Both the position numbers and the translations under genes were made by a program. From IMG/VR virus record IMGVR_UViG_3300031951_000389, positions 1 through 42,153 of that record: 42,153 bases of DNA; one strand, 5' to 3'. The notes beneath the pieces are model-generated. The model saw nothing but the letters and a program-made list of their open reading frames with translations. It was not told the origin of the DNA and did no database searches. Positions 7,580 to 35,524 of this stretch are shown in pieces (position 1 is the stretch's first letter; every line of letters begins with the position of its first letter). The stretch is from a virus.

Positions 7580-7828
7580 TCAACGCTTGAATCTGACTGT
7601 GATATACGTCCCCGCAAACGCCCCGGAGGCGAGCGGTACGAGGTACAGAATGTTCTTGGAGTAGCTCACGACGCCGTAGGCCAAGAGCGAGTAGATAATC
7701 GACGTCAGCAGCGCGGCCGTGAACGCCCGTCGCTTGCCGACCGCGAGGATATACCAGGCGTACATCATGTCGATCGCGACGTAGGTGCAGAAGATCGCCC
7801 ACGCGGTAGCCCAACTGAACTCGCTCAT
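7580..7828 (-). CDS. Small membrane protein next to terminase
   Basis: 82 residues with three likely membrane helices: WAIFCTYVAIDMMYAWYILAV, AFTAALLTSIIYSLLAYGVV, and LVPLASGAFAGTYITV. The ATG overlaps the terminase stop (ATGA). The pattern YxxxDxxYAxYI...SxxY...GAxxGTYI occurs in small membrane proteins of many environmental phages, to my knowledge without a proven role. A holin or superinfection-exclusion function is possible but not shown. Confidence 0.75.
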   Translation of the reverse strand: MSEFSWATAWAIFCTYVAIDMMYAWYILAVGKRRAFTAALLTSIIYSLLAYGVVSYSKNILYLVPLASGAFAGTYITVRFKR

Positions 7829-9933
7829 CTGTTTCCCCCCAGCTTCGACAGGAGCGCGGCCCGCTTCGCCGCCATCTCCTCTCGCGAAATAACCTTGCGT
7901 GCGGCCGCAGGCTTTGCCTGGACGCCAACAGCCGAGATCCCGGTGAACGAAGCGGCGACGGCCGAGCCGATCACACAGTCCCACAGATGGTTGTCGCGGC
8001 CCGGAATGAGTTTCCATTCGTCCACGACCCGCATTTTTGACTCGACGCGGATCGGAACCTCGCTCGACATTTGCTCCGCCAGCATCTCGTGCTGGCCGTC
8101 GTGCAGCGTGAACCCGAGCGGGTCGCCCATCGGTAGCTTTACGCGAGAGGCGACAAACGTCTTCCAGGCGTTCGTGTCGTAGAGCAAATGCCGCTGCCGG
8201 CCGATCGTGCTGGTCCGCCAGTTGGCGCCGACTCGCTCCCCGCGGTCTGGTGGCTTGTCAGAGATCGTCTGGCCGCTGGCACCAACAAATCGCCCGTGCG
8301 TCGGAAGGATGCGCGGCCCCCACTTTGACCGCCTGGCGAAGTCTCGCACGACCCCCTGTGTCTGCGCCCAGTTGGCGTCGATGCACAGTTGGCTCACGCG
8401 GAGAACGGCGTCATCATCCTCGCGGGCGAACTCGCGGTCGAGCAGCATCGCCGCGACTTGCTCGAGGCCGGAATGGATGGCGGCCTCCACGTTGTTGCCG
8501 TGTACCTTCGCCAGCGTCTTCTTGGCATCACGGAGCGTGAAGTAGGCTCGCGGCTGCTCCGGGTACGCTCCGTAGGCGACGACGTGGCCGCGAAACTGGT
8601 GGCCCCAGCCGAGCACTGCCCAATACAAGAGCGTTTGCTGGACGTCCACGAACACCGTTAGCGTGTCGAGGCCGCGAGGCACGATCCACCGCGGAACTGG
8701 GATCACGCGACGGCGAATATCGTCTGGCTGCAGGCCTGTTGACGTCGCCTCGTCCTTGAGCGGAGTCTGCTGAAACTCCGACATAAACACGTCTTCGCCG
8801 TCGTCGATCAAGGCGTTGTATGCGTGCTGGATAGCGGAGTTTTCACGCTCCGGATCGAAGCACGAGGCCCACGACACCATGCAGCCGTCGTCCATCTCGG
8901 CGCGATTGGCCAGATAGAACTCGTTGGCTTCCGTGTGCGCTCTGGCCTGGTCGCCAACCACGTCGGAGGAGAACGTGCATCGCAGTTCGCGATATTTGTC
9001 CATCCACAGCCCGTCGTGGGCTTTGGCGAACTGCCGCACCATCGGAATCCGTTCGCCTTGCCATGCGGGGTGTTTCCCTTGGTCGAGCAGTTGGTCAACC
9101 ATGTCGTCCACCTGGATCACAGTGGCGTTGACGACGCAGGCGATGCTCGTGGTGTGGCCGGCCAGCTTCATCACCGACTTCAAGAGTATTTCGAGCCGAG
9201 CCTGGCACTGCATCGGGCTCTTGGCCGATTCCCGCGTCTGCGGATCGTCTACGATCACGAAATCCGGCCGGAGCTGCTTCCCGTCCGCAGACTTGTGCCG
9301 TAGGCCCAGGATCGAGCCGGTGAGCCCCTTGCTCGTGATGATGGCTCCGCCAGAAACCGACCCCTCAATCGCCGGCAAAACGATCGTGTCTTTCTTCCAC
9401 TGGATATGCGTCCGCTTGCCGCCGGCCGTCTGCGACGAGCACCGCTGGGGCTTGCCCTCCAAGGCCCGCACCGGCAGGCAGACCTCGGGGAAGTCTTCCG
9501 CCAGCAGGTCGTTGTCCGACAGCTCCGTTTTGATCGACGTGATGGCCTTGTCGGCCAGGCCGGCCTCGGCCGCGAAGATCGCCCCGAATCGCCGGTGGCC
9601 GTACAGAATCGCCCACAGCAGGGCATTCTCCGAGATCGTGGACTTGGCAAACCCGCGGTAGACCGCATTGCAGAACCGGCCGCCGCGGATGATGCAGTCT
9701 TGAATCCGCGTGATGACCCGTTTGTGGTCGTCGGAGAAGGGGGAGAGGCCCGTCGAATACGGGAAGTACGTCGTCAGGAACAGCTCGAGGCTTTCGCGGC
9801 AGGCGGCCCGGCGTTCGGGATTCGCGACCTGGGCTATCGCCCCAATGTCGGCACCCAGCCGCGTCGTTTCGCGGCCGCGCTCAAGCGTGCCTTTCCGGCG
9901 ATTCTCAATCGCCTCTTTGCTTTTAGCGACCAT
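7825..9933 (-). CDS. Terminase large subunit
   Basis: 702 residues from the ATG at 9933. The ATPase domain has a P-loop-like YRGFAKST (residues 92-99) and Walker B DFVIVDD (224-230). The RNase-H-like nuclease domain follows, with TVFVDVQQT and LCIDANW carrying candidate metal-binding Asp residues. C-terminal WDCVIGSAVAAS is typical of GpA-type large terminases. It cuts and pumps DNA into the prohead through the portal encoded downstream. The start overlaps the nuclease gene by 11 nt and has no good ribosome site, suggesting coupled translation. A small terminase subunit was not identified with confidence. Confidence 0.9.
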   Translation of the reverse strand: MVAKSKEAIENRRKGTLERGRETTRLGADIGAIAQVANPERRAACRESLELFLTTYFPYSTGLSPFSDDHKRVITRIQDCIIRGGRFCNAVYRGFAKSTISENALLWAILYGHRRFGAIFAAEAGLADKAITSIKTELSDNDLLAEDFPEVCLPVRALEGKPQRCSSQTAGGKRTHIQWKKDTIVLPAIEGSVSGGAIITSKGLTGSILGLRHKSADGKQLRPDFVIVDDPQTRESAKSPMQCQARLEILLKSVMKLAGHTTSIACVVNATVIQVDDMVDQLLDQGKHPAWQGERIPMVRQFAKAHDGLWMDKYRELRCTFSSDVVGDQARAHTEANEFYLANRAEMDDGCMVSWASCFDPERENSAIQHAYNALIDDGEDVFMSEFQQTPLKDEATSTGLQPDDIRRRVIPVPRWIVPRGLDTLTVFVDVQQTLLYWAVLGWGHQFRGHVVAYGAYPEQPRAYFTLRDAKKTLAKVHGNNVEAAIHSGLEQVAAMLLDREFAREDDDAVLRVSQLCIDANWAQTQGVVRDFARRSKWGPRILPTHGRFVGASGQTISDKPPDRGERVGANWRTSTIGRQRHLLYDTNAWKTFVASRVKLPMGDPLGFTLHDGQHEMLAEQMSSEVPIRVESKMRVVDEWKLIPGRDNHLWDCVIGSAVAASFTGISAVGVQAKPAAARKVISREEMAAKRAALLSKLGGNR

Positions 9934-10264
9934 CACGGGCTCGGAGTATTTCGATAGCCATGTCCACGAGCCGCTCGGTCTCCACGATCACGACGCTCTT
10001 GCGGCGGTTGCAGCGGTGCCAGACGCACGGGACCGCACCGGCCGGGGCGTCGGCCTTGGCCTGGTCGATGGCGTCCCACAGTTTGAGGCGCTCGACACGC
10101 TTGCACTCGACGTGCAGGTTGACGCCAGGCAGGACTACGTCGGGGGAGTCGGGGCCGCCCTGGAACTGGACGCCGCGACGGGCCTCGACGCCCAGCAGCT
10201 CGCCCATCTCGGCGGCACATTCCCGCTCGCCCACCTTGCCTTTGCGGCGCGACATGGAGCCCAT
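9923..10264 (-). CDS. PD-(D/E)xK nuclease, Holliday-junction-resolvase-like
   Basis: 113 residues; the ATG at 10264 has GGAGG at 6 nt, while the ATG just before it is too close. The fold signature is GKVGERECAAEMGELLG (helix with conserved Glu), then SPDVVLPGVNLHVECKR, the Asp...Glu-x-Lys catalytic core. Small stand-alone enzymes of this type in phages act as Holliday junction resolvases or debranching endonucleases before packaging. The neighbour is the terminase gene, which fits. A motif repeated elsewhere (GGAGTATTTCGATA, plus strand) lies in its 3' end. Confidence 0.75.
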   Translation of the reverse strand: MGSMSRRKGKVGERECAAEMGELLGVEARRGVQFQGGPDSPDVVLPGVNLHVECKRVERLKLWDAIDQAKADAPAGAVPCVWHRCNRRKSVVIVETERLVDMAIEILRARDGR

Positions 10265-10521
10265 CATTCGCCTCCCACGATGCGGAGCGTGCGGCATTTG
10301 CCGTCTTCCCAATCCACCACGCCGTCGCGGCGGAGGCGGACGAGCTTTTGGAATACGTCGCTCGTGTGAATGTCCATCGACCTAGCAACCTCTCGGAAGG
10401 TTGGCGGGTATCCGTGGCTGGCGATCCACTTCGCGATGGCCTTGAGCACGGCCATCTGCCTTTTCGTTGTACCGTGGCTTTTTGCCGCTTGAATGCCAGC
10501 TTTGGTAATCACTTGCGTCAT
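10264..10521 (-). CDS. LexA-type winged-helix DNA-binding protein
   Basis: 85 residues. TKRQMAVLKAIAKWIASHGY followed by PPTFREVARSMDIHTSDVFQ and a short wing match the LexA N-terminal DNA-binding domain. The LexA autoprotease domain is absent. It could be a transcription factor or a small terminase-like DNA-recognition protein given its place two genes before the large terminase. The start overlaps the previous stop (ATGA). Confidence 0.75.
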   Translation of the reverse strand: MTQVITKAGIQAAKSHGTTKRQMAVLKAIAKWIASHGYPPTFREVARSMDIHTSDVFQKLVRLRRDGVVDWEDGKCRTLRIVGGE

Positions 10522-11465
10522 TCCGTCACTCCTTGGCGTATCTTCGCCCGCACTGCGCGGCGGGCGTCTGCGATCTCCGTATCACCGAGCTCACCGTCCA
10601 GGCGGGCGTGCTCCTCGGCCCGCCGCCGTTCCTCGCGCTCTCTCGTGGCGGCTGCGGCCGCAGCGAAGGCCGGATCGACCTTCGGGGGCGGCTTGTCGTC
10701 GGGGCCGGCCCGTGGGGCGGGCTTGCGAGACTTGTCGCGCCAGTAGCCACCAAGCACCTTGGCCACGAAATCCGGCTTGCAGAACTGGCCCAGCGTCACC
10801 GGGTCGTCGAATCGCTTGCAGGCCGCGAGCATTGGGATCGCCCGTAGTGCCTCGTCCAGCCAGCCGGCGTCACCTAGCCGGTCCAGAGCCTCACCGGGCG
10901 GGCTCGACGACTGCCAGGCCGTCCTGCGGCCCTGCGATGCCCCCTCGTTCCAGGCTTTCCGCAGCTCCGGCCAGCCCTGTTTTTCCCCTCCGTGAGGTGC
11001 TGGTGGTGGTGGTGAAGAAGACATGGACATGGAAGCATCGCTGGAGCATGTGCCATCGCATGTGCCTTCGCATATGCGATCGCATATGCGTTCGCATTGC
11101 TCGCCCACATCGACGGCGGTGGCTGGGGGGTTTGGGGCGTTTTCAGGCTGCGAGTCGGATGCCCACCGCTGGGAGGCCGACTGACGGGCCTTTTCGCTCC
11201 GTTCGTGCGACTTAGACCGCTCGTGCTCCAGCCGTAGGTTGCGGCGCTTGCCGTCCTTCCAGACCGGGAATTTGTCTTGAATAGCCTTCCAGCACGACCG
11301 GATGCCTGGCGAGATCAGTTCAAGCCGCTTCACGTCGTCTGGCAGGCCGCCCTGCTCCCACTGCACGATCAGCAGTGTGACGTAGTGGCCGCGTTCGTCA
11401 GCGGTCCAGCCCGTGGTGGCGGCGAGGAAGTCGCGGCCGAAGAATGGGAACCAGCTACTAGCCAT
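10518..11465 (-). CDS. DUF1376 family replication protein
   Basis: 315 residues; the ATG at 11465 overlaps the HNH gene. The N-terminal 75 residues (SSWFPFFGRDFLAATTGWTA, GHYVTLLIVQWEQGGLPDD) match DUF1376, found in phage genes near replication and thought to act like initiator or helicase-loader proteins. A low-complexity linker follows in which ERICDRICEGTCDGTC is encoded by four 12-bp iterons. The C-terminal region (WPELRKAWNEG, LGQFCKPDFVAKVLGGYWRD) resembles other phage replication proteins. The arrangement, initiator gene containing iterons, recalls lambda O and its internal origin. Confidence 0.75.
   Translation of the reverse strand: MASSWFPFFGRDFLAATTGWTADERGHYVTLLIVQWEQGGLPDDVKRLELISPGIRSCWKAIQDKFPVWKDGKRRNLRLEHERSKSHERSEKARQSASQRWASDSQPENAPNPPATAVDVGEQCERICDRICEGTCDGTCSSDASMSMSSSPPPPAPHGGEKQGWPELRKAWNEGASQGRRTAWQSSSPPGEALDRLGDAGWLDEALRAIPMLAACKRFDDPVTLGQFCKPDFVAKVLGGYWRDKSRKPAPRAGPDDKPPPKVDPAFAAAAAATREREERRRAEEHARLDGELGDTEIADARRAVRAKIRQGVTE
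11046..11100. repeat. 12-bp iterons in the replication gene (candidate origin)
   Basis: Four direct 12-bp units on the plus strand: GCATGTGCCATC (11046), GCATGTGCCTTC (11058), GCATATGCGATC (11070), GCATATGCGTTC (11082), then a partial GCATTGC. Two units contain the palindrome GCATATGC. The units keep period and phase exactly. They encode a repetitive Cys-rich stretch that looks like a by-product of a DNA function. Confidence 0.75.
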
Positions 11466-12090
11466 TGCAACCGCCAATCGTCTTTCCCCTGTATTTAATG
11501 ACAAACGTCGTGCGCGGCTCCGGCGTTTGCTGGTTGTTGTTCATTCGATCACGCCTAGCGTCGGCTGCGCGGCGAATCACAAGCGGCGGTGGCGGCGGCG
11601 GCGCTTCCTCGGGATGAACAGATGATTCATTGCGAGAATCGTCTTTCATTCTCATGCCGCACTTGATCGCATTCAGCAACAGCCTCTCGGCCTCCTTCGG
11701 GTCGCACATTCCTTTGGAAACCGAAATCCCTATCGAACCGCATAGCTCAACGCAGTAATAGCCGCAATCAACGTAGAGCTCGCCGTCGCGGCTTATGACT
11801 TTAAGGACGTGGAACGGCCTGTCCTCGACCGCACAGGGGTCAACGTCTGATTTTCCGTGAATGAACTCGTGGCATCCGTTGCAGATCCCCTGCAAGTCCC
11901 GAAGGTCTTCGCGGTACTTTCGGGCATATGTCAGGTGATGCACGGCCTGTATTGGTCGAGTAAAGCATCTCTCACACTGGCCGCCTGCGCGGTCGTGAAC
12001 AGCGTTTTTGAGAACGCTCCACTCCCTGCTGCACAGGTACGCCTGGTACTTTTCTCGCTCGTCGTCAATGTCTTCCCACCTATTTGCCAT
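11458..12090 (-). CDS. HNH endonuclease
   Basis: 210 residues from the ATG at 12090 (AAGGGG at 6 nt), overlapping the resolvase-like gene by 11 nt. YLCSREWSVLKNAVHDRAGG, then CERC, AVHHLTYARKY (His-His), GICNGCHEFIHG form the HNH fold with two zinc-binding CxxC pairs. The C-terminal 110 residues are Pro-rich and unrecognised. Phage HNH proteins may assist packaging or be homing-type; here the embedded place in the replication operon suggests a house role or a fixed former homing gene. Confidence 0.85.
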   Translation of the reverse strand: MANRWEDIDDEREKYQAYLCSREWSVLKNAVHDRAGGQCERCFTRPIQAVHHLTYARKYREDLRDLQGICNGCHEFIHGKSDVDPCAVEDRPFHVLKVISRDGELYVDCGYYCVELCGSIGISVSKGMCDPKEAERLLLNAIKCGMRMKDDSRNESSVHPEEAPPPPPPLVIRRAADARRDRMNNNQQTPEPRTTFVIKYRGKTIGGCNG

Positions 12091-12454
12091 CCGTGGCCCC
12101 TTTCGTGCTTCGTAGCATTTCACCGACGAGCGACTGCACGGTTTCCGCAAACTCGCCCGCCCAATCTGCACACAGAACAATCCTGCCATATGAGCCTGTA
12201 TCCGAAGGCCCCTTGCGAGACCAGCGATCCATTGCTTCAACGTAGATCGGGCAGCCGTGCTCTTCTGCTGTCCGAATAGCAAGCTCGCGCTGCGGAAGCG
12301 GCCCAGTTCCGCTGCAAACGTCAGTGAAGACGCCGACAACGTAGGCGTTGTCTTTCTTGGCACGATCGACGCACGTTTCGAGCTGACGCACCAGGCCGTG
12401 GCCCCAGGCTTGAGGCCGCGTGCTCACTCGCGTGTAGATGACGCACTGTGCCAC
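12080..12454 (-). CDS. Stand-alone serine recombinase (resolvase) catalytic domain
   Basis: 124 residues, starting at a GTG that shares its first base with the upstream stop (TAGTG), with GGAGG 8 nt away. CVIYTRVSTRPQ holds the catalytic Ser of the resolvase family; R-x-L-E-T-C, FTDVCSGTGPLPQR and EAMDRWSRKG follow the family pattern (DRLSR equivalent). The family normally continues with a DNA-binding domain of 50 to several hundred residues; here the protein ends about 60 residues after DRWSR with no HTH. It may recruit a partner or have been repurposed. Confidence 0.7.
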   Translation of the reverse strand: MAQCVIYTRVSTRPQAWGHGLVRQLETCVDRAKKDNAYVVGVFTDVCSGTGPLPQRELAIRTAEEHGCPIYVEAMDRWSRKGPSDTGSYGRIVLCADWAGEFAETVQSLVGEMLRSTKGATDGK

Positions 12455-12741
12455 TAGGCGACCCTCCATTCCCTCTCGGGTCGCCCGCTCAAGCTGTTCA
12501 CCCGCCGCCCGGTCTGCACTATGACGCCGACCTTCTCCAGCTCGTGAAGCCGCTTGCCGACCTGGTGGGGCTCGAGGCCGCACCGGGCTCCGATCTCGCT
12601 GGCCCCGGCGGCGCCAAGCCGCAGAGCCCGCACGATCTTGTCGTGGTGGTCTGCCCGTAGGCCGGCCGCCATGCTGGCCGCAATCCGCGACGTTTCTGGA
12701 CCCCGCTGGCGAAACAGCGGCAGGTCTTCCAAGCCTGTCAT
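12454..12741 (-). CDS. Winged-helix DNA-binding protein
   Basis: 95 residues; the ATG at 12741 has GGAGG at 5 nt. The region HHDKIVRALRLGAAGASEIG then ARCGLEPHQVGKRLHELEKV and a wing VQTGRRVNSLSGRPEREW is a typical wHTH of the MarR/ArsR-like shape used in phage regulators and replication accessory proteins. Target unknown. It shares one base with the serine recombinase start. Confidence 0.7.
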   Translation of the reverse strand: MTGLEDLPLFRQRGPETSRIAASMAAGLRADHHDKIVRALRLGAAGASEIGARCGLEPHQVGKRLHELEKVGVIVQTGRRVNSLSGRPEREWRVA

Positions 12742-13535: not shown

Positions 13536-13750
13536 GTCTCAATCTCCGGCTTGTGAACATTCCCAACTCGCACAATGCGATCCGACTCACCGTTTGCCAC
13601 GTCCTGAATCTGGCTCAATGCCTTCATTGCCGGCAGGTCGCCAGACTCGTAGGCATCAAGTGCCTGCTTGACCTTTGCCAGCCGCTCGACCGCCACGGCT
13701 CCGCGTTGGTTCTTGCGGTTGGCCCACGGCGTTGAATCGTGCCATGCCAT
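13532..13750 (-). CDS. Hypothetical early protein
   Basis: 72 residues from the ATG at 13750, which overlaps the recombinase stop (TGATG) and has GGAGG at 7 nt. Predicted mainly helical (AVERLAKVKQALDAYESGDL). No family recognised. It sits between the recombinase and ssb, so an accessory role in recombination is possible but unsupported. Confidence 0.55.
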   Translation of the reverse strand: MAWHDSTPWANRKNQRGAVAVERLAKVKQALDAYESGDLPAMKALSQIQDVANGESDRIVRVGNVHKPEIET

Positions 13751-14592
13751 CACTGCACCTCCACGAGGCTAGGAGTCTGCGGGGCGTGCTCTCGAATCTG
13801 GCCCCAATCTATGTAGGCCTGGGCTGCTAGGGTTGCGGTCCGATGACCCAGGTGGAGGCTTGCTTTGCCTGGGCTACGAAGCTCTATGTGTGTCGCTCCG
13901 CTCCTTCTCAACCACTTTGACGTGCCTGGAAGACCGGCCGCGACACAGAGCTGCCGCCACCACCGCCACGCTTGGCGAGGCTTGCAGGCCCACCCGACGA
14001 TCCGGCCATCCGGTGATTGCTCGAGCATCCGCAGGCAGGCCGCGACACAGGCCGGCGTGAGCACCTTGTGCAGCGGGTCGCCCGTTTTGCTCTGGGTCCA
14101 CCGCAGCACGTCACCGTCTAGGTTCTCGGCCGAAAACCGCCAAATGTCGCCGTGCCGGCTGCCCGACTCGTAGCCGAGCAAGATCCACGCCACGAGCCAA
14201 TCACCGATGTTGGCACCAGACCGCATCCAGTGGCCGCGATACTCGCCAGCCTTGTCCAGCAGCGTCCGTACCTGCTCAATCGTCCATGCCCGTGTCGGCG
14301 GCTTCTTGGCCTTGATCCGCATGACGCCGCGCGGCCATTCGGCAACCATCCGCTTCTCGTAGGCATAGCGCCATAGCGACAGCAGGATCGTCCGTTCGCT
14401 GCGAACCGTAATGCCAGACACGACGGCCATGCGGGCCTTGATGTAGGCGTTCACGGAATCGGCCGACACGACGCCGCCGGCCTTTGCCAGACGCCGCACG
14501 TTCTGCTGGTAGACCGAGCTGACGACACGATCCGCAAGGTACGCTTCGGCAACGTCCTTGAACCGCACGGCTTTGGTGGATTGCTTACGCAT
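13750..14592 (-). CDS. Tyrosine recombinase 2
   Basis: 280 residues. The ATG at 14592 has GGAGGT at 5 nt and overlaps the upstream gene by 8 nt. A core-binding domain (about 1-95) precedes the catalytic domain with Arg146 (ESGSRHGDI), Lys169 (WTQSKTG), Lys226-x-x-Arg229 in place of the usual HxxR (KWLRRSG), His250 (HLGHR) and Tyr260 (AQAYID). WTQSKTG and KWxRR are shared with the integrase at 17301, so the two are paralogues. It lies inside the early replication operon, away from the attachment site. It may resolve genome dimers or serve as a second integration or inversion enzyme. Confidence 0.85.
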   Translation of the reverse strand: MRKQSTKAVRFKDVAEAYLADRVVSSVYQQNVRRLAKAGGVVSADSVNAYIKARMAVVSGITVRSERTILLSLWRYAYEKRMVAEWPRGVMRIKAKKPPTRAWTIEQVRTLLDKAGEYRGHWMRSGANIGDWLVAWILLGYESGSRHGDIWRFSAENLDGDVLRWTQSKTGDPLHKVLTPACVAACLRMLEQSPDGRIVGWACKPRQAWRWWRQLCVAAGLPGTSKWLRRSGATHIELRSPGKASLHLGHRTATLAAQAYIDWGQIREHAPQTPSLVEVQ

Positions 14593-15496
14593 TGGCCACC
14601 TCCGCATCGGCGGGCTCAATCTCGTTCTTCCGGCCGTCGATCATCTTGCGGAGCTTCTCGGCCTGGCCTTCGGTGAGCTGGCCGAGCGATACGGCATGGG
14701 CCGCGTCGTCCGCAATCGCGTCCAGGTCGCCAGCCGTGGCCGCGGCCTTCACGCGATCCATCCAGCCCGGCTTGGCGTCGGCCGCGCCGAGAATCCCTGC
14801 GAGCTGGTCGATGCTCATTGGCATCGACTCCGGCAGGCCGAAACGATTCTTGGCGTCCCAGGCCGCGGCACGCTGGGCGTACATGACACGCTCCTTCCCC
14901 CCACGAGCCTTCATGCGACCGTCCTGGCCCTCGACGAGCGTCAGCCGGTAGTTGCAGAACAGGAGGAGATCGCACCATTCCTTGAACAGCGGCGCCGAAT
15001 GCTTGGTCAGCTTCAACTCCCAGCGGTCGAACCCTTCGGTTTCGTCCGGCGGGCTCGTCCGCTGCACCTTGGAGTGGGCAACGAAAACCACGTTCATGCC
15101 GCGGTCGATGAGCTGGTCGGCGGCGGACAGCAGCTTGGCGACGTGCTCCGCAAGCATGACGTAGCCCTTGCCAAAGCCGAAATCCTCGATCGACTTTTTC
15201 CCAGACTTCTTGAGCAGGTGGTCGATGATCTGTCGCTCGGCCCAATCGGCCGAATCGACCACGATCGTCTTGAACCCCTGCGAGTCGCGTGCAAGCTCGT
15301 GCATCGCACCTTCCAGCGTCAGCCAATCACGGCAGACGACACGGGCACAGTCGATACGCGACGAACCTTCCTCGGTATCCAGAATCAGCGGGTTCGGCCA
15401 CTGGGCCGCCAGCGTCGTTTTGCCGATGCCCTCTGTTCCGTACTTCACGCAACGGACGGGCGACTGCATCTTGCCGCGAACAATGTTGAGACTCAT
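14585..15496 (-). CDS. Sak4-like RecA-fold ATPase
   Basis: 303 residues. Walker A is YGTEGIGKTTLA (about residues 19-30), Walker B IVVDSADW, and a later VVFVAHSKVQR. These match phage nucleotide-binding proteins of the AAA_24/Sak4 group, a minimal RecA-like core that helps single-strand annealing with an SSB partner. The C-terminal helices (LTEGQAEKLRKMIDGRKNE) are common in this group. The neighbouring ssb and recombinase genes support a recombination role. Confidence 0.85.
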   Translation of the reverse strand: MSLNIVRGKMQSPVRCVKYGTEGIGKTTLAAQWPNPLILDTEEGSSRIDCARVVCRDWLTLEGAMHELARDSQGFKTIVVDSADWAERQIIDHLLKKSGKKSIEDFGFGKGYVMLAEHVAKLLSAADQLIDRGMNVVFVAHSKVQRTSPPDETEGFDRWELKLTKHSAPLFKEWCDLLLFCNYRLTLVEGQDGRMKARGGKERVMYAQRAAAWDAKNRFGLPESMPMSIDQLAGILGAADAKPGWMDRVKAAATAGDLDAIADDAAHAVSLGQLTEGQAEKLRKMIDGRKNEIEPADAEVANA

Positions 15497-15735
15497 TCAT
15501 CGACTCCCTTCACGCAGTCCCAGGCTTCATCGACCGCGGCACACAATGCCACGACGTTGCCTGGGTGAATCCGATAGAGACCCTTGGCTTCCATCCGCAT
15601 CGACACCATCGCGGCCCTCGCCGCCTTGAGCACCGCCAGCAGCCTTGCCTGGCGATACGTCTGCCGTGCTACCCGCACGTTCGCGTCGTAGTGGTCTTTC
15701 CTCTGTCCTTGGCCGCGCCTAATCACGCTTTCCAT
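15493..15735 (-). CDS. Hypothetical early protein
   Basis: 80 residues. The ATG at 15735 lies inside the 3' end of csrA with GGAGG at 6 nt. It is basic and helical (KDHYDANVRVARQTYRQARL) with a conserved-looking MRMEAKGLYRIHPGNVVALC. No family recognised. Its start is nested in the csrA frame, so its translation would be coupled to csrA. Confidence 0.6.
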   Translation of the reverse strand: MESVIRRGQGQRKDHYDANVRVARQTYRQARLLAVLKAARAAMVSMRMEAKGLYRIHPGNVVALCAAVDEAWDCVKGVDE

Positions 15736-15925
15736 GCTCAACCTCCGTGCTGACTTTCACCTGGTCGAACGGCTCCAGTTCCTCGCGAATCACGTTGACG
15801 TCGGTCGGCGCCGTGATCCCGAGCTTCACGCGACCCCTCCCGTAGTCGATCGTGTTCACCTTGACGGTGATCCCCAACGCGGGGAACACGATCGACTCGC
15901 CAGCTTTCCGCGACAAAACAAGCAC
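15719..15925 (-). CDS. csrA: Phage-borne CsrA/RsmA RNA-binding regulator
   Basis: 68 residues. The start is the GTG at 15925, with AAGGAG 6 nt upstream; longer in-frame starts lack this. The protein begins MLVLSRKAGESIVF, followed by VKVNTIDYGRGRVKLGITAP and TDVNVIREEL, matching CsrA along its length: the conserved N-terminal LVLSRKxGE, the GxxRxGIxAPxxVxVxREE block and five predicted beta strands. CsrA dimers bind GGA motifs in mRNA leaders and block or stabilise translation. As a phage gene it could reprogramme host mRNAs or time phage genes. Overlaps the next gene by 17 nt. Confidence 0.92.
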   Translation of the reverse strand: MLVLSRKAGESIVFPALGITVKVNTIDYGRGRVKLGITAPTDVNVIREELEPFDQVKVSTEVEHGKRD

Positions 15926-15962
15926 TGCACACTCCTTGAAAAGCCCGATCATCAGCCGTGAA

Positions 15963-16343
15963 TCACGGGCTCGACGGTTTCCCTGCGGTCCTCTTCCGCT
16001 TTTTTCCGCTGCAATCCGTTGCCGCGGCATCCTTTTGTCCCCAGCGGCTTGAGCAGATGGCCGCGGTGCAGGCTGCGGTGCGTTTGCACGCCCGCAACTC
16101 TGCCAGCCGCGCCATCGTGTCAGGCTCCTCGACGAGCACGGTGCCAAGTTCGTCGCGGCAGTGCTGCAGATCGGTGATCGCAGCCACAACCGCGTCGTAA
16201 ATGGCCAGCCGGTCGCCAGAGGCGATACGCAGGTCGATGTTGTCGTCGTCGATCTCGCCGGGAGCGAAGGTCTTTGTTGCCCCTTTGCTGCGATTCGCTC
16301 TGTTGAGCAGGGCAATCGCGGCGGACTCAACGGCAAGAATCAG
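15963..16343 (-). CDS. Hypothetical early protein, unusual start
   Basis: The frame is coding-like: a helical first half (LILAVESAAIALLNRANRSK), an acidic EIDDDNIDLRIASGD, and a second helix with HCRDELGTVLVEEPDTMARL, then a Cys-containing basic tail. There is no ATG, GTG or TTG near the end of the upstream gene. A CTG at 16343 overlaps the upstream stop as CTGATT, so either CTG is used by coupling or a frameshift joins the two genes. Function unknown; start uncertain. Confidence 0.45.
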   Translation of the reverse strand: MILAVESAAIALLNRANRSKGATKTFAPGEIDDDNIDLRIASGDRLAIYDAVVAAITDLQHCRDELGTVLVEEPDTMARLAELRACKRTAACTAAICSSRWGQKDAAATDCSGKKRKRTAGKPSSP

Positions 16344-17300: not shown

Positions 17301-18194
17301 ATGTTCCGCAGAGCCGGCCCATCGACACTTGGGCAATATGCGAGGGAGGGGTATAGCCTGCTCCGCGACGTGAAACCGGACACAGTCCGGCAGTACGTCA
17401 TCGTGGCGGACCTATTTGAGCGGTGGGCCGGCGGGCCGGTCCCACTGGATTCTCTGGACGAAAAGAGCGTTTCGGCCTGGCTGCGCGACTATTCCGCGAC
17501 TCGCCGGCCGGCCACCGTGAGGGGCAAGAAAAACATGATGCTGGCCTTGTGGCGTGCGGCTGCGGACGACGGGGCCTGCGAGGAGCCCGTGGGCCGAAGG
17601 GTGCGGAAAACGCGGGTTCCGCAGTCTCCCGTGACCGCCTGGACGAAAGAGGAGGTCGAGCGGCTCCTGGTCGCCTGCCAAACGCTTCCCCGCTGGCACA
17701 AATGCGGACTCCGCCGAAGTGTCTGGTGGGATCTCGCCGTCAGAGTGGCCTGGGACTCCGGAATCCGGTGGGGAGACCAAGTCGAGCTGCCGGTCTCGGC
17801 AGTCCGGCCAGATGGCACGGTCTGCTGGACGCAAAGCAAGACGGGCAAGGTCGTCACGTTTCGGCTTTCGCCGTCCACGATGGCGGCGTTGGCCGCGAGC
17901 CTCGCGTCGTGCCCCAGAGCCCTTGTGATGCCGTGGCCGTCCAGCCGCGAGACATTCCTAGACCAGGTGGAGCGGATCGTGAAGCGGGCCGGAATCCGAG
18001 ATGGGACGTGGAAGTGGATTCGTCGCGGAAGCGGTACAGACGTCGAATTGCAGCAGCCGTATGCCGGCCATCGCCACTTGGGCAACACGCGATCGGTCTT
18101 CGAGCAGAGCTATGGCGACCAATCCATCCTTGGCCGCACCGTGCCAACGCCGCGGGAGCTGCTCGTGGATGCCCTCAATCGCACAGGCGGGTAG
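17301..18194 (+). CDS. int: Tyrosine integrase 1
   Basis: 297 residues; the ATG at 17301 has GAGG at 6 nt. The N-terminal core-binding domain spans about 1-100. Catalytic residues: Arg156 (SGIRWGD), Lys180 (WTQSKTGK), Lys238-x-x-Arg241 replacing HxxR (KWIRRG), and Tyr271 (FEQSYGD). The usual LGH is LGN (HLGNTR, 259-264) with His257/His259 nearby, an unusual substitution. It lies next to the tRNA-fragment attachment site, so it is the likely integrase. It is the only phage-lifestyle gene on the plus strand left of the accessory operon and is a paralogue of the recombinase at 13750. Confidence 0.9.
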   Translation: MFRRAGPSTLGQYAREGYSLLRDVKPDTVRQYVIVADLFERWAGGPVPLDSLDEKSVSAWLRDYSATRRPATVRGKKNMMLALWRAAADDGACEEPVGRRVRKTRVPQSPVTAWTKEEVERLLVACQTLPRWHKCGLRRSVWWDLAVRVAWDSGIRWGDQVELPVSAVRPDGTVCWTQSKTGKVVTFRLSPSTMAALAASLASCPRALVMPWPSSRETFLDQVERIVKRAGIRDGTWKWIRRGSGTDVELQQPYAGHRHLGNTRSVFEQSYGDQSILGRTVPTPRELLVDALNRTGG

Positions 18195-18774: not shown

Positions 18775-19066
18775 CCCACCTGGACGACGTCGCTCGGGTC
18801 TCGTGTTTATGGTGAACACGACAAGCGACCACGAGCGACCACGAGCCCTGCCGACGTGGCCACGTCATGCCAGCTCCACCACGAGCCCGGCCAGCTCCAC
18901 CACGAGACCGGCCGACGTGGCCGGCCAGCTCACGACCGGGCGAGCTGGCCGACGTCGCGGGCTCGTGGGCATGACGTCCACCACGAGCCCGGCGGCCTGC
19001 CACGAGCCGCCAAAATTCTCACGATACTAAATGTCCGATGGCCGACGTCGGCCGAACGTGATGGCG

Positions 19067-31896: not shown

Positions 31897-32217
31897 CTAG
31901 GGTCCGAAGTAGATGACGTGAACCTTGAGCAGCCAGCCGCGGGCCGCGATCTGCACGCGGTTCCCCGCCTCGTTCAGCCATCTTTTCCTAGCCTCGCACC
32001 CACACCCCCCCGGTATGCCTTCCGTGCGAGTCCACCGCTCGACGCGCTCCCGCGTGATACCCAGCCGCGTCAGCCACCGCTCGACGAGGTCGCCGACGGG
32101 TACGGGCTTCCACGATTTCACCGGCACGGGGCGGCACTCGCGGTAGGTGGGCAGACGTTTGGCCCGGTAGCCGCAGGTCGGGCAGGTCATCGCCGGGTTG
32201 TCGAAGTCGCAGTTCAC
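31897..32217 (-). CDS. Cys-rich zinc-binding protein in the tail cluster
   Basis: 106 residues, starting at a GTG that overlaps the upstream stop (GTGA). CDFDNPAMTCPTCGYRAKRL gives a CxxC zinc knuckle, and GGCGCEARKRWLNEAGNRVQ a second Cys pair. The middle (VGDLVERWLTRLGITRERVE) looks helical. The GCGCxxRKxWLN motif is seen in tail-region genes of several environmental phages. Function unknown. Confidence 0.65.
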   Translation of the reverse strand: MNCDFDNPAMTCPTCGYRAKRLPTYRECRPVPVKSWKPVPVGDLVERWLTRLGITRERVERWTRTEGIPGGCGCEARKRWLNEAGNRVQIAARGWLLKVHVIYFGP

Positions 32218-34775
32218 GCTGGCCCAACCTCAGCGGTGAACTCGCAGTTTTTCGTGAGCACGCCCTGATTGTTGTGGTAGTAGGAGCAGAGCGTGTATGT
32301 GCCATACGGATTGCATATCGGCACAGACACGCACCGTTCGGCCGGTGCGTCTGGGCTGTTCGTGTAATTGTTTACCGCTGCAATTGCCGTGGGATGCTGA
32401 AAATGCACAAGCACTCGGCAGTGTGAGTCGCAGTCAGTACACGCTTCCGATGGCTCAAGAGAAACCAGTACCATCAGTTCATTTGCACTTGCATAATTCC
32501 CCCAATGCACGCCATCTTGGGAATTTATTGAAACCACGCTTCTGACGTAGACGCCATCAAACGCGGAAATAGTGCTGCCTGTGATCTCAATAGCAATTTC
32601 TTGTGGCACCTCGCCGCTGCCCTTGCAGCACGACGCGCATGCCAACCCGCCGGGATTTAGGTAGTCTTCGACGTATTCGCCCCCCGGCGTCACGCTCGCT
32701 GTTGCGACTCCACCTGCCCTAGCAAAAGCGGTAAATGCCAAGTTAGAGCAGTCATACGGCACGCCGCCCGGAAGTGCAGGCGCATGGAAGTCGGCGTCGC
32801 ACACATTGGCGGTCGCTTCTGAGGAATTTGAAAGCTCTGTCTCAACCCTCACAAATGGTGATTTCAGCGGGCCGTTGTATTCCAAGCGAACGTGACCAGC
32901 GGCTTTGAGATTGCTGAAGCCGCCACACATTTTGTGGCTGTACCGGCAGTTCGCCGCGCCGCCGGAGAGCGGGAGTGCGGTTTCCTTCCGCAGCACGACG
33001 CTGCGCCCGTTCCAGTGCTGTCCGCAGCATGACGTTCCGCCGGTCACAGCCGCCAAATATCCGTCGCCGCCATCGTCAATACTCAACCCGACAGCGCGAC
33101 CAAAGTTTGGACTCGACGTGTTGCTGTCGATGACCGCCGTGATGACGGCTCCTGCTCCGTCGCTCGGAGAAAATTGCCCAATGTTGCCAGTGACTGTCGC
33201 CACATACGGCGGCAGGCTGGCGTCCTCGCGGTAGTATTCGCCGCCATTGGTGATCGTCACGCCAGTCGGGACGCCCGTGTAGTAGTAGTACTGACCAGGG
33301 TTCGTCACTACCACGCGCGAGATTTCGCCGGTCGCCTTGTAGTAGTCGCCGCCGTTCGTGATTGTCACTGATTGGATGACGCCGTTGCCGGTTGCCTTGT
33401 AGAACTTTCCAATGCCGCCGAACTCATCAAGCCCGACGCCCGTGATCGCGCCGTTCTCATCGACACTCGTAATGAGCCACCCGTCCGTCTCAACCAAGTA
33501 GTACGGATGAATACTGGCAAAACCAGTGCCAAACTCCGAATACCAAAAATACTCTCCAACCTCGTATCCGCTGCCTCCTTCAATTACGTTGATTGGAAAC
33601 ACGCCCCACGTTTCTGGATCATCTTCGTTGCTTACCATCGTTGCAGACAGCACTGCACCAGACCCGCCAGTAGTGCCGTCAACGCCCCAGACATACGGTG
33701 TGAGGTTCGGATTCTCTCTTCCAGCTTCGGTCGTCGCAATCGTCCCGCTCGCTGCCGTCACCTGCGTCCCGTCCGTCAGGGTGAACGTCACCGGATCGCC
33801 GTCCGTGTAGCCCGTGCCGCCGTTCGCCACTGCCACGGAGTCAACGTGCCAGAGGGCCGTATCGCTCGGCGTGGTTGGCGACTGCGAAAGCGTGACCGTC
33901 AGGGACGCGCCGCTGCCGCCTGACGCGCTCGCAGTGATCGTCGGCGTGGTGCGGGCGGTTTTGATAACCGCCGTGGCCTTGGTCTGCTCGGTGACGTTGG
34001 CCCCGTAGCTGAATGTCACCGAAGCCCCATCGGTGTAGCCCGAAGTCGTGCCGCTGACAGATACGCTCGCCACGCCCCAGGTCTGCGGCGTGGTGCCGTT
34101 GCTCGCGAGCGTCGGCGTCAGCGTGGCCCCCGTGCCACCCGACACGCTCGCCGTCAGTGTCGGCTGGGAGCGGGGGTCGGTCTGCACAGTCAGCACCGCA
34201 GCCGCCACGGTCGTGTCGCCAGCCTTGGTCGATACCGTAAGCGTCTCGCCGTTGGCGTACCCCGTGCCGCCAGAGAACGTGACCGAGGCGATCTTCCAGG
34301 TGGGGATGCCACAGGCGTCATTCGTCGCCGTCACGGTCGGAGTGACGGTCAGGCCAGTGCCACTGCCGCCGCTCACCGTCAGCGTGGGAGCCACGCGGGC
34401 GAGCTTGGCGTAGCCACTGCCGGGGTTGGTGAGTAGCACGCCAGTGATCGGCCCCTTGTCTGTTTCCGGGTCGCCAACCGGGGCGGTCACGATGCCCTCT
34501 GCGCCACCACCAAAGCAGCTAGAAAACTGACTTAGCGGCCCAAAGAACACCCTAGAGACGCCGACGACCGACTTTTCGTGAAAGTTGTCGAATGTGACCG
34601 TCACAGTGTCTGGCAGCGAGCCTGTCTCGCAGAGGCTGCACGGGTTGCAGCAAGCCGAGCAGCTTGACCCCAGCATGAACCCAAGCGGGTACATCCCGGC
34701 AGCGAACGCGAATAGCGACCACAGCACCAGCGACGGCGGATCGGCAGATTGGATGGCGGCGAGAATGTCGAACAT
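32214..34775 (-). CDS. Large repeat-containing Cys-rich tail spike or anchor protein
   Basis: 853 residues; GGAG lies 5 nt before the ATG at 34775, which overlaps the upstream stop. An N-terminal membrane-like helix (PSLVLWSLFAFAAGMYPLGF) is followed by SSCSACCNPCSLCETG. Residues about 115-430 hold four 70-75-residue repeats of type PTLTxSxSGGxGxxLTxT...GGTGYTDGDxVTFT, beta-solenoid-like. The C-terminal part has further Cys clusters (CASCC, CTDCDSHC). Lower GC than its neighbours. Probably an exposed tail spike stabilised by disulfides. Confidence 0.7.
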   Translation of the reverse strand: MFDILAAIQSADPPSLVLWSLFAFAAGMYPLGFMLGSSCSACCNPCSLCETGSLPDTVTVTFDNFHEKSVVGVSRVFFGPLSQFSSCFGGGAEGIVTAPVGDPETDKGPITGVLLTNPGSGYAKLARVAPTLTVSGGSGTGLTVTPTVTATNDACGIPTWKIASVTFSGGTGYANGETLTVSTKAGDTTVAAAVLTVQTDPRSQPTLTASVSGGTGATLTPTLASNGTTPQTWGVASVSVSGTTSGYTDGASVTFSYGANVTEQTKATAVIKTARTTPTITASASGGSGASLTVTLSQSPTTPSDTALWHVDSVAVANGGTGYTDGDPVTFTLTDGTQVTAASGTIATTEAGRENPNLTPYVWGVDGTTGGSGAVLSATMVSNEDDPETWGVFPINVIEGGSGYEVGEYFWYSEFGTGFASIHPYYLVETDGWLITSVDENGAITGVGLDEFGGIGKFYKATGNGVIQSVTITNGGDYYKATGEISRVVVTNPGQYYYYTGVPTGVTITNGGEYYREDASLPPYVATVTGNIGQFSPSDGAGAVITAVIDSNTSSPNFGRAVGLSIDDGGDGYLAAVTGGTSCCGQHWNGRSVVLRKETALPLSGGAANCRYSHKMCGGFSNLKAAGHVRLEYNGPLKSPFVRVETELSNSSEATANVCDADFHAPALPGGVPYDCSNLAFTAFARAGGVATASVTPGGEYVEDYLNPGGLACASCCKGSGEVPQEIAIEITGSTISAFDGVYVRSVVSINSQDGVHWGNYASANELMVLVSLEPSEACTDCDSHCRVLVHFQHPTAIAAVNNYTNSPDAPAERCVSVPICNPYGTYTLCSYYHNNQGVLTKNCEFTAEVGPA

Positions 34776-35524
34776 CAGCACTCCGCAGCGACGAGAAGCC
34801 ATCGGTCACCGACGAACACGCAGAGAACCTTCTTTGTGCCGCTTGCGACGGTGACGGCGGCGAAATGATTTGTGGCGGTGAACGCAACCGTTGGCGAAAG
34901 CGCTGACCCATCTGCCTTGATCTGTGTCACGGTGGCAGTAGCACCCTTTGCCCACGTCGCGGAGACCGTGCCGAGACGCGGGCCGCCCCCAGATTCTCCG
35001 CCTCCAATGGCGACAAGCGCCCACTTTCCGCCGCCAGTGCCGCCTTGCTTCCAGATGATCCTAGCTGGTCCGCTTCCTGTCTTCAGCTCTGTTAGTGAGC
35101 CAGATTTTGCTCCTGCCGTCACGTCTCCAGCAGCAGCCACGTCCAGCTTGCACTGCACGACGCCTGCGACGGAAACACGGCCAATGGCTCCGCTCGCTAT
35201 GGGCTCGACAGCAATTACAAACGGCTTGGATGAGTCCGTTGGCGTCACTCCAGTGACACATGGCGTGCTCTGAAACGTCGCCTCGGCACTTGCTCCGTCG
35301 CCGGGATCAAACACTACGCCGGAGATTTCAAGCACGCCCCAGCGATCAACGTCTGCGCCGGAACTATTTCGGCACAAAATGACGTTTTTGGCCGCCTGCG
35401 GAATGTCAACTGGCCCAGAATTGAACCCGGTGTTGACCCGCATCAGCGAGTTGAGGCTGTTCACCTGCTCGGCCGCCAGGCGGAGCGGCTGGCCGCGCAA
35501 AACGTGGTTGCGTGGGTCTTTCAT
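34775..35524 (-). CDS. Tail-tip/baseplate-associated protein
   Basis: 249 residues; ATGA start. An N-terminal helical part (PRNHVLRGQPLRLAAEQVNS) followed by a beta-rich region (WGVLEISGVVFDPGDGASAE, GRVSVAGVVQCKLDVAAAGD) ending in FVGDRWLLVAAEC, like phage proteins that decorate the tail tip. Between a likely distal tail gene and the spike gene. Confidence 0.6.
   Translation of the reverse strand: MKDPRNHVLRGQPLRLAAEQVNSLNSLMRVNTGFNSGPVDIPQAAKNVILCRNSSGADVDRWGVLEISGVVFDPGDGASAEATFQSTPCVTGVTPTDSSKPFVIAVEPIASGAIGRVSVAGVVQCKLDVAAAGDVTAGAKSGSLTELKTGSGPARIIWKQGGTGGGKWALVAIGGGESGGGPRLGTVSATWAKGATATVTQIKADGSALSPTVAFTATNHFAAVTVASGTKKVLCVFVGDRWLLVAAEC

Follow-up and report, generated by a model that had tools for sequence, protein, structure and literature searches.

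The stretch of DNA analysed here, hereafter called the window, is a virus record of 42,153 bases that carries phage genes for portal, head-protease, tape-measure, terminase, Sak4-type annealing and integrase proteins. The gene of interest, on the minus strand, codes for a DUF1376 protein that we propose to be a replication initiator (Table 1). It is directly preceded by an HNH-endonuclease-like ORF, the true start of which is probably internal, and it is followed by genes for a LexA-type DNA-binding protein, a PDDEXK-type phage endonuclease and the terminase large subunit. A resolvase domain is found at 12080-12583, and integrase-like genes are found at 13750-14619 (minus strand, by sequence reading only) and 17301-18194 (plus strand, Pfam E=1.3e-5). 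The end of another ORF (15719-16336, minus strand) codes for a CsrA-like global regulator (PF02599, E=2.4e-12), and an ORF of the relative L092 (3810-4223) is also CsrA-like by eye. Tandem repeats of 10 and 21 bp occur between larger ORFs at 18824-18913. Among the tail genes, an ORF of 862 codons (32214-34802, minus strand) has no PHROGs match at E 0.001.

Table 1. Features of the window around the DUF1376 gene.
Feature	Position	Strand	Remarks
DUF1376 gene, proposed initiator	10518..11465	-	ATG at 11465, stop at 10518; 315 aa
LexA-type winged-helix DNA-binding protein, gene following that of DUF1376	10264..10521	-	PF01726, E=1.8e-16
HNH-endonuclease-like ORF, directly upstream of the DUF1376 gene	11458..12363	-	phrog_119 HNH endonuclease, E=2.8e-7
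PDDEXK-type phage endonuclease	9936..10267	-	PF24608, E=9.8e-7
Terminase large subunit	7825..9936	-	PF20454, E=5.3e-22; phrog_38, E=1.5e-32
Putative iteron array, five 12-bp-spaced units	11046..11100	-	Codons about 122-140 of the DUF1376 gene
GCATRTGC cores	11046-11053, 11058-11065, 11070-11077, 11082-11089		Plus-strand lettering
Half-unit GCATTGC	11094-11100		Plus-strand lettering; fifth unit, exact 12-bp period kept
Tract poor in G and relatively AT-rich, adjoining the array on its 3' side (coding strand)	10998..11035	-	Encodes SMSMSSSPPPPAP

The protein matches DUF1376 (PF07120) with an E value of 1.2e-4 and 22.8 bits, against a gathering cut-off of 30.1, while two of its relatives, L087 and L102, lie above that cut-off with 40 and 33.4 bits. 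Its PHROGs match is a 'primosomal protein' (E=1.3e-10). It comprises an N-domain that resembles winged helices in a weak match, a disordered linker that contains the array, and a C-domain. In the AlphaFold2 model, the N-domain is ordered and the C-domain largely so, and residues 112-147, which correspond to the linker, have pLDDT values below 50. Structural comparison with VIA-align returned ORC2- and MarR-type winged helices with Z scores of 5.8 or lower, a weak result that fits a winged helix; the lambda O fold is absent among the VIA-align matches listed, an absence that carries no weight. A sequence search of the PDB with the family profile gave no match, and Foldseek returned nothing at E at or below 0.001.

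The array is made up, in order, of GCATGTGC, GCATGTGC, GCATATGC, GCATATGC and the half-unit GCATTGC. TRF called it at 11046-11097, with a period of 12 and 4.3 copies. Its self-match over 40 bp at a lag of 12 is 35/40, whereas shuffling the whole window 200 times with dinucleotides preserved gave a maximum of 27, and 60 shuffles gave 28 when lags of 8 to 40 were considered. The number of GCATRTGC motifs in the window is a weaker signal, with 8 strand hits for 3.68 expected and 5 of 100 shuffles reaching 8. The first-pass annotation had described four GCATRTGC iterons with an exact 12-bp period between positions 11046 and 11100. The TRF call, the positions of the cores and the shuffles bear this out, and the end point is correct as well because GCATTGC at 11094-11100 continues the 12-bp period. 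Their placement in the linker of the DUF1376 gene also holds: the array encodes ERICDRICEGTCDGTC there, in the segment of low pLDDT.

Read along the coding strand, TCCATGTCCATGTCTTCTTCACCACC comes after the array, in a tract whose longest G-free run spans 11001-11021 and whose AT content is moderate, at only about 42-47%. The GC skew of the window gives no clear origin signal, and it is confounded by gene orientation.

Among cultured phages, neither DNA nor protein searches gave a close match to the window DUF1376 gene with an E value of 1e-5 or lower. Its relatives were therefore drawn from IMG/VR and MAGs. Viral contigs provided 20 loci at first and then 80, kept out of 93, and genome contigs provided three more, two of them from Phycisphaerales and Planctomycetia MAGs. 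After removal of near-duplicates and of proteins under 200 aa, 54 genes remained of these 83 loci. Motif counts divide them into groups of GCAYATGC (the window type, with 12-bp spacing; 28 genes), GCAAWCG (22 genes) and GCAATGC (4 genes) cores.

The genes found next to DUF1376 are linked to replication in a number of these relatives. A DNA polymerase sliding clamp is encoded downstream of DUF1376 in L087, L102 and L077. Altogether, 12 of 23 records have the clamp. Its central domain is encoded on the strand of the DUF1376 gene, less than 1.7 kb downstream, in 11 of the 12. In several cultured phages, the DUF1376 gene adjoins a gene for a DnaC-like loader, DnaB or a DnaA-like protein. DnaB is its neighbour in phages phiLM21 and Lbo-JY16, and in phiLM21 the DnaB gene comes before that of DUF1376. 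Across the 23 records, window included, there is no DnaC-like (PF01695) match above the cut-off and no DnaB_C (PF03796) match. The one sub-threshold IstB match, in G011, lies within a gene resembling PhoH. For L087 and L092, no informative family was obtained for the gene that comes right after DUF1376, and no helicase, helicase loader or sliding clamp was recognised in the window.

The position of the array, the skewed tract adjacent to it and the replication neighbours in relatives support an origin function. We consider, with a probability of about 0.77, that the array represents iterons and that, together with the tract, it forms the replication origin of the phage inside the gene of its own initiator.

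Another reading is that the array is an operator, through which DUF1376 or the adjacent LexA-type protein would control transcription of the operon, the origin then being elsewhere. The cores of the array are palindromic, and 13 of 21 records encode a LexA-type domain, directly downstream in the window; that protein is possibly a partner or a rival binder of the array. However, arrays are also present in the other eight of these records, which have no PF01726 match (L051, L081, L092 and five cultured phages, that is, all of those tested), bearing in mind that records may be fragments. In addition, a site located 370 bp inside a gene and followed by a skewed tract would be unusual for an operator, and we regard this reading as unlikely. 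We give still less credit to the array being a DNA-packaging site recognised by the terminase. Although the gene for the terminase large subunit is only about 600 bp downstream in the window, no terminase was seen among the ORFs listed around DUF1376 in L087, L102 and L077, where a clamp is found instead, and the array remains in the DUF1376 gene.

We then asked of the relatives whether the linker is repetitive beyond what its peptide imposes. For this synonymous null, codons were resampled for residues 95-165 with the protein kept fixed, and the self-repetition of the DNA was scored. In a first run, the linker exceeded the null (at most 5 of 100 resamplings reaching the real value) in 44 of the 54 genes. 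In a rerun with controls, it did so in 46 of 54, as opposed to 6 of 54 for the N-domain and 4 of 53 for a C-terminal stretch, these relatives not being phylogenetically independent. Among the 46, the best lag is 11 or 12 in 35 genes, 23, 33, 36 or 66 in ten, and 34 in one.

The arrays of more distant relatives contain GCAAACG at 11-bp spacing, and an 11-bp period is found in most GCAAWCG arrays. Because 11 bp do not make up a whole number of codons, the reading frame moves on by one from each copy to the next. GCAAACG is read 34, 13 and 21 times in frames 0, 1 and 2, respectively. In 20 of the 54 genes, a single core occupies at least two frames, and in 12 of those genes it occupies all three. 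L085 has ten GCAAACG copies with exact 11-bp spacing. Similarly, GCAATGC is read as CAA-TGC in the window and as GCA-ATG in L092. With the core in different frames across relatives, the peptide changes completely, and the DNA word and its spacing are constant. Codon usage is also biased in the arrays of the 51 genes (of 54) with at least two cores: Ile is encoded by ATA in 64 of 85 array codons vs 15 of 326 elsewhere, and Gln by CAA in 52 of 66 vs 97 of 449 elsewhere (Fisher tests were run on both counts).

These data bear on the idea that the array is selected as a peptide, in the form of a metal-binding, Cys-rich CX3CX3CX3C element. Cys is indeed kept at every fourth residue in the window group. 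However, it is lost while the DNA unit is retained in L040, L045 and others, where the unit reads AGC-ATT-GCT, and also in L036. Other groups use other frames, ATA codons are favoured, and the linker is predicted to be disordered, making a selected peptide highly improbable. The first-pass annotation had ascribed the odd Cys-rich linker to selection on the DNA and suggested looking in relatives for iterons conserved despite divergence of the protein. The relatives agree with it, since 46 of the 54 linkers exceed the null and the 11- or 12-bp periods are kept as peptide and frame change. It had also named a pattern that would speak against it, a peptide kept with the DNA period lost; the relatives display the opposite. 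Selection on the DNA of the array rather than on the peptide is thus well supported by sequence comparison, because relatives keep the 11- or 12-bp period while the peptide and the reading frame of the iterons change. Neutral tandem duplication in an unconstrained linker would fit the copy number of the unit, which varies from one to ten among relatives, but it is just as improbable, as the cores and the 11- or 12-bp spacing recur between genes that are only 30-36% identical (best segment) and come with a codon bias absent elsewhere in the gene. Units are few in two to three of the close relatives, among them L047 and L112 with only two half-units.

The tract next to the array is also found in relatives, in which the array is followed by runs of CCTCCTCCT, ACGTCAACGTCA, CCTTCACCTTCA, CCAACACCAACA or ACAACAACA. 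Over 40 bp starting 10 bp past the array, G averages 12% in the 54 genes vs about 35%, and the mean AT content in those 40 bp is 54% and then 45%, vs about 35%. Pro codons with A or T in third position make up 147 of 177 in the tract vs 282 of 864 elsewhere, and therefore the skew is not merely an effect of a linker rich in Pro, Ser and Thr. In 36 of the 54 genes, the longest G-free run goes beyond what codon shuffling gives (at most 10/200), the remaining 18 having no significant run. We propose that the tract might be an opening or single-strand loading element.

We determined how the iterons vary with each domain of the protein. Iteron similarity correlates with N-domain similarity with r=0.75, and the partial correlation is 0.49 when C-domain similarity is removed (52 of the 54 genes). 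For the C-domain, r is 0.67 and the partial correlation, with N-domain similarity removed, is 0.20 (52 genes). Both partial correlations passed permutation, and they were computed without a model of shared ancestry. Furthermore, the GCAAWCG core accompanies groups of C-domains that are barely alike. These observations point to the N-domain, with its weak match to winged helices, as the reader of the iterons. In the origin that we propose, the winged-helix-like N-domains would line up side by side on the iterons, at intervals of about one helical turn, and their binding would open the tract next to the array. The role of the C-domain would be to recruit a helicase or a helicase loader, which in this phage probably comes from the host.

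The first-pass annotation had called the origin lambda-like. In phage lambda (NC_001416), four annotated iterons occupy codons 117-145 of O, nearly the codons of the window array (about 122-140). Like that array in its putative initiator gene, they sit midway along the gene, with the parts coding for the N- and C-terminal portions on either side. They start in frames 0, 2, 2 and 1, hence in several frames, as do those of the DUF1376 arrays, and the synonymous test picks them up (0/200). In both cases, a skewed tract follows the iterons on the coding strand. A published account of lambda describes its iterons with an AT-rich tract beside them (PMC7466680). The tract is strongly AT-rich in lambda, whereas it is G-poor in DUF1376 genes. 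The repeats differ as well: the lambda iterons are 18 bp long and spaced by 20-24 bp, in contrast with an 8-bp core every 12 bp in the window and a spacing of 11 bp in distant relatives. Comparison of the window family with lambda O using hhalign yielded no alignment of note, and in Pfam the window protein matches DUF1376 only, while lambda O matches PF04492. No loader gene was recognised in the window, unlike in the lambda layout. The likeness to lambda stands for the layout only, and it extends neither to detectable homology with lambda O nor to a recognised helicase or loader in the window. As judged from these comparisons, the predicted initiator is not detectably related to lambda O, and the layout is the same.

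Another counterpart is found in the Rac prophage of Escherichia coli, whose YdaU is a DUF1376 protein (E=2.7e-26) followed by the ATP-binding YdaV. The N-domain of YdaU matches the window family (hhalign E=3.9e-5), and no C-domain alignment was reported in that comparison. The ydaU linker exceeds the synonymous null (7/200), with repeats that are weaker than those of the window and different from them. Rac has an active origin, oriJ, according to a published report (PMC3945230).

We also analysed 14 phage records, hand-chosen for diversity out of 104 matching YdaU and 4 matching L087. Arrays of 11-bp units are present in the DUF1376 linkers of Sinorhizobium phage phiLM21 and Moraxella phage Mcat30, with cores that differ from that of the window, and a 12-bp array of the GCAATGC type is present in that of Leptolyngbya phage Lbo-JY16. 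Unlike the window, these three records have no LexA-type match. Cultured phages and Rac together provided 15 DUF1376 genes, of which 11 exceeded the synonymous null (at most 10/200), although in three of the 11 (PfDIW6, AH02 and PfAn1) the repeats are simple short-period tracts. The null was not exceeded in the other four, those of phiKX1, Azospirillum Cd, KEN_02 and RHph_TM3_3_3. In a survey of titles and abstract openings, with few subscription journals covered, we found no description of iterons in DUF1376 genes.

More tentatively, at slightly below even odds, we propose that DUF1376 proteins at large might be a family of iteron-binding initiators whose genes generally carry their own origin. 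Their winged-helix N-domain would co-evolve with 11- or 12-bp iterons, the G-poor hexamer tract would be a single-strand loading element, and interchangeable C-domains would recruit different helicase-loading partners. The members with 11-bp iterons would spell one DNA word in three frames in turn, so that the stretch would be an origin first and a protein second. An origin embedded in the DUF1376 gene, as proposed for the window, would give a role open to testing to a domain that occurs in many phages and whose function is unknown, and it would make the exact site of the origin predictable from sequence alone in uncultured phages. It would also provide a clear natural case of selection on DNA overriding protein coding, a claim that the frame-rotating 11-bp arrays make checkable from sequences alone. 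Finally, GCATATGCGATC repeats are found in L026, a contig retrieved by DNA pattern alone, at 1280-1300 and 1445-1477, 165 bp apart.
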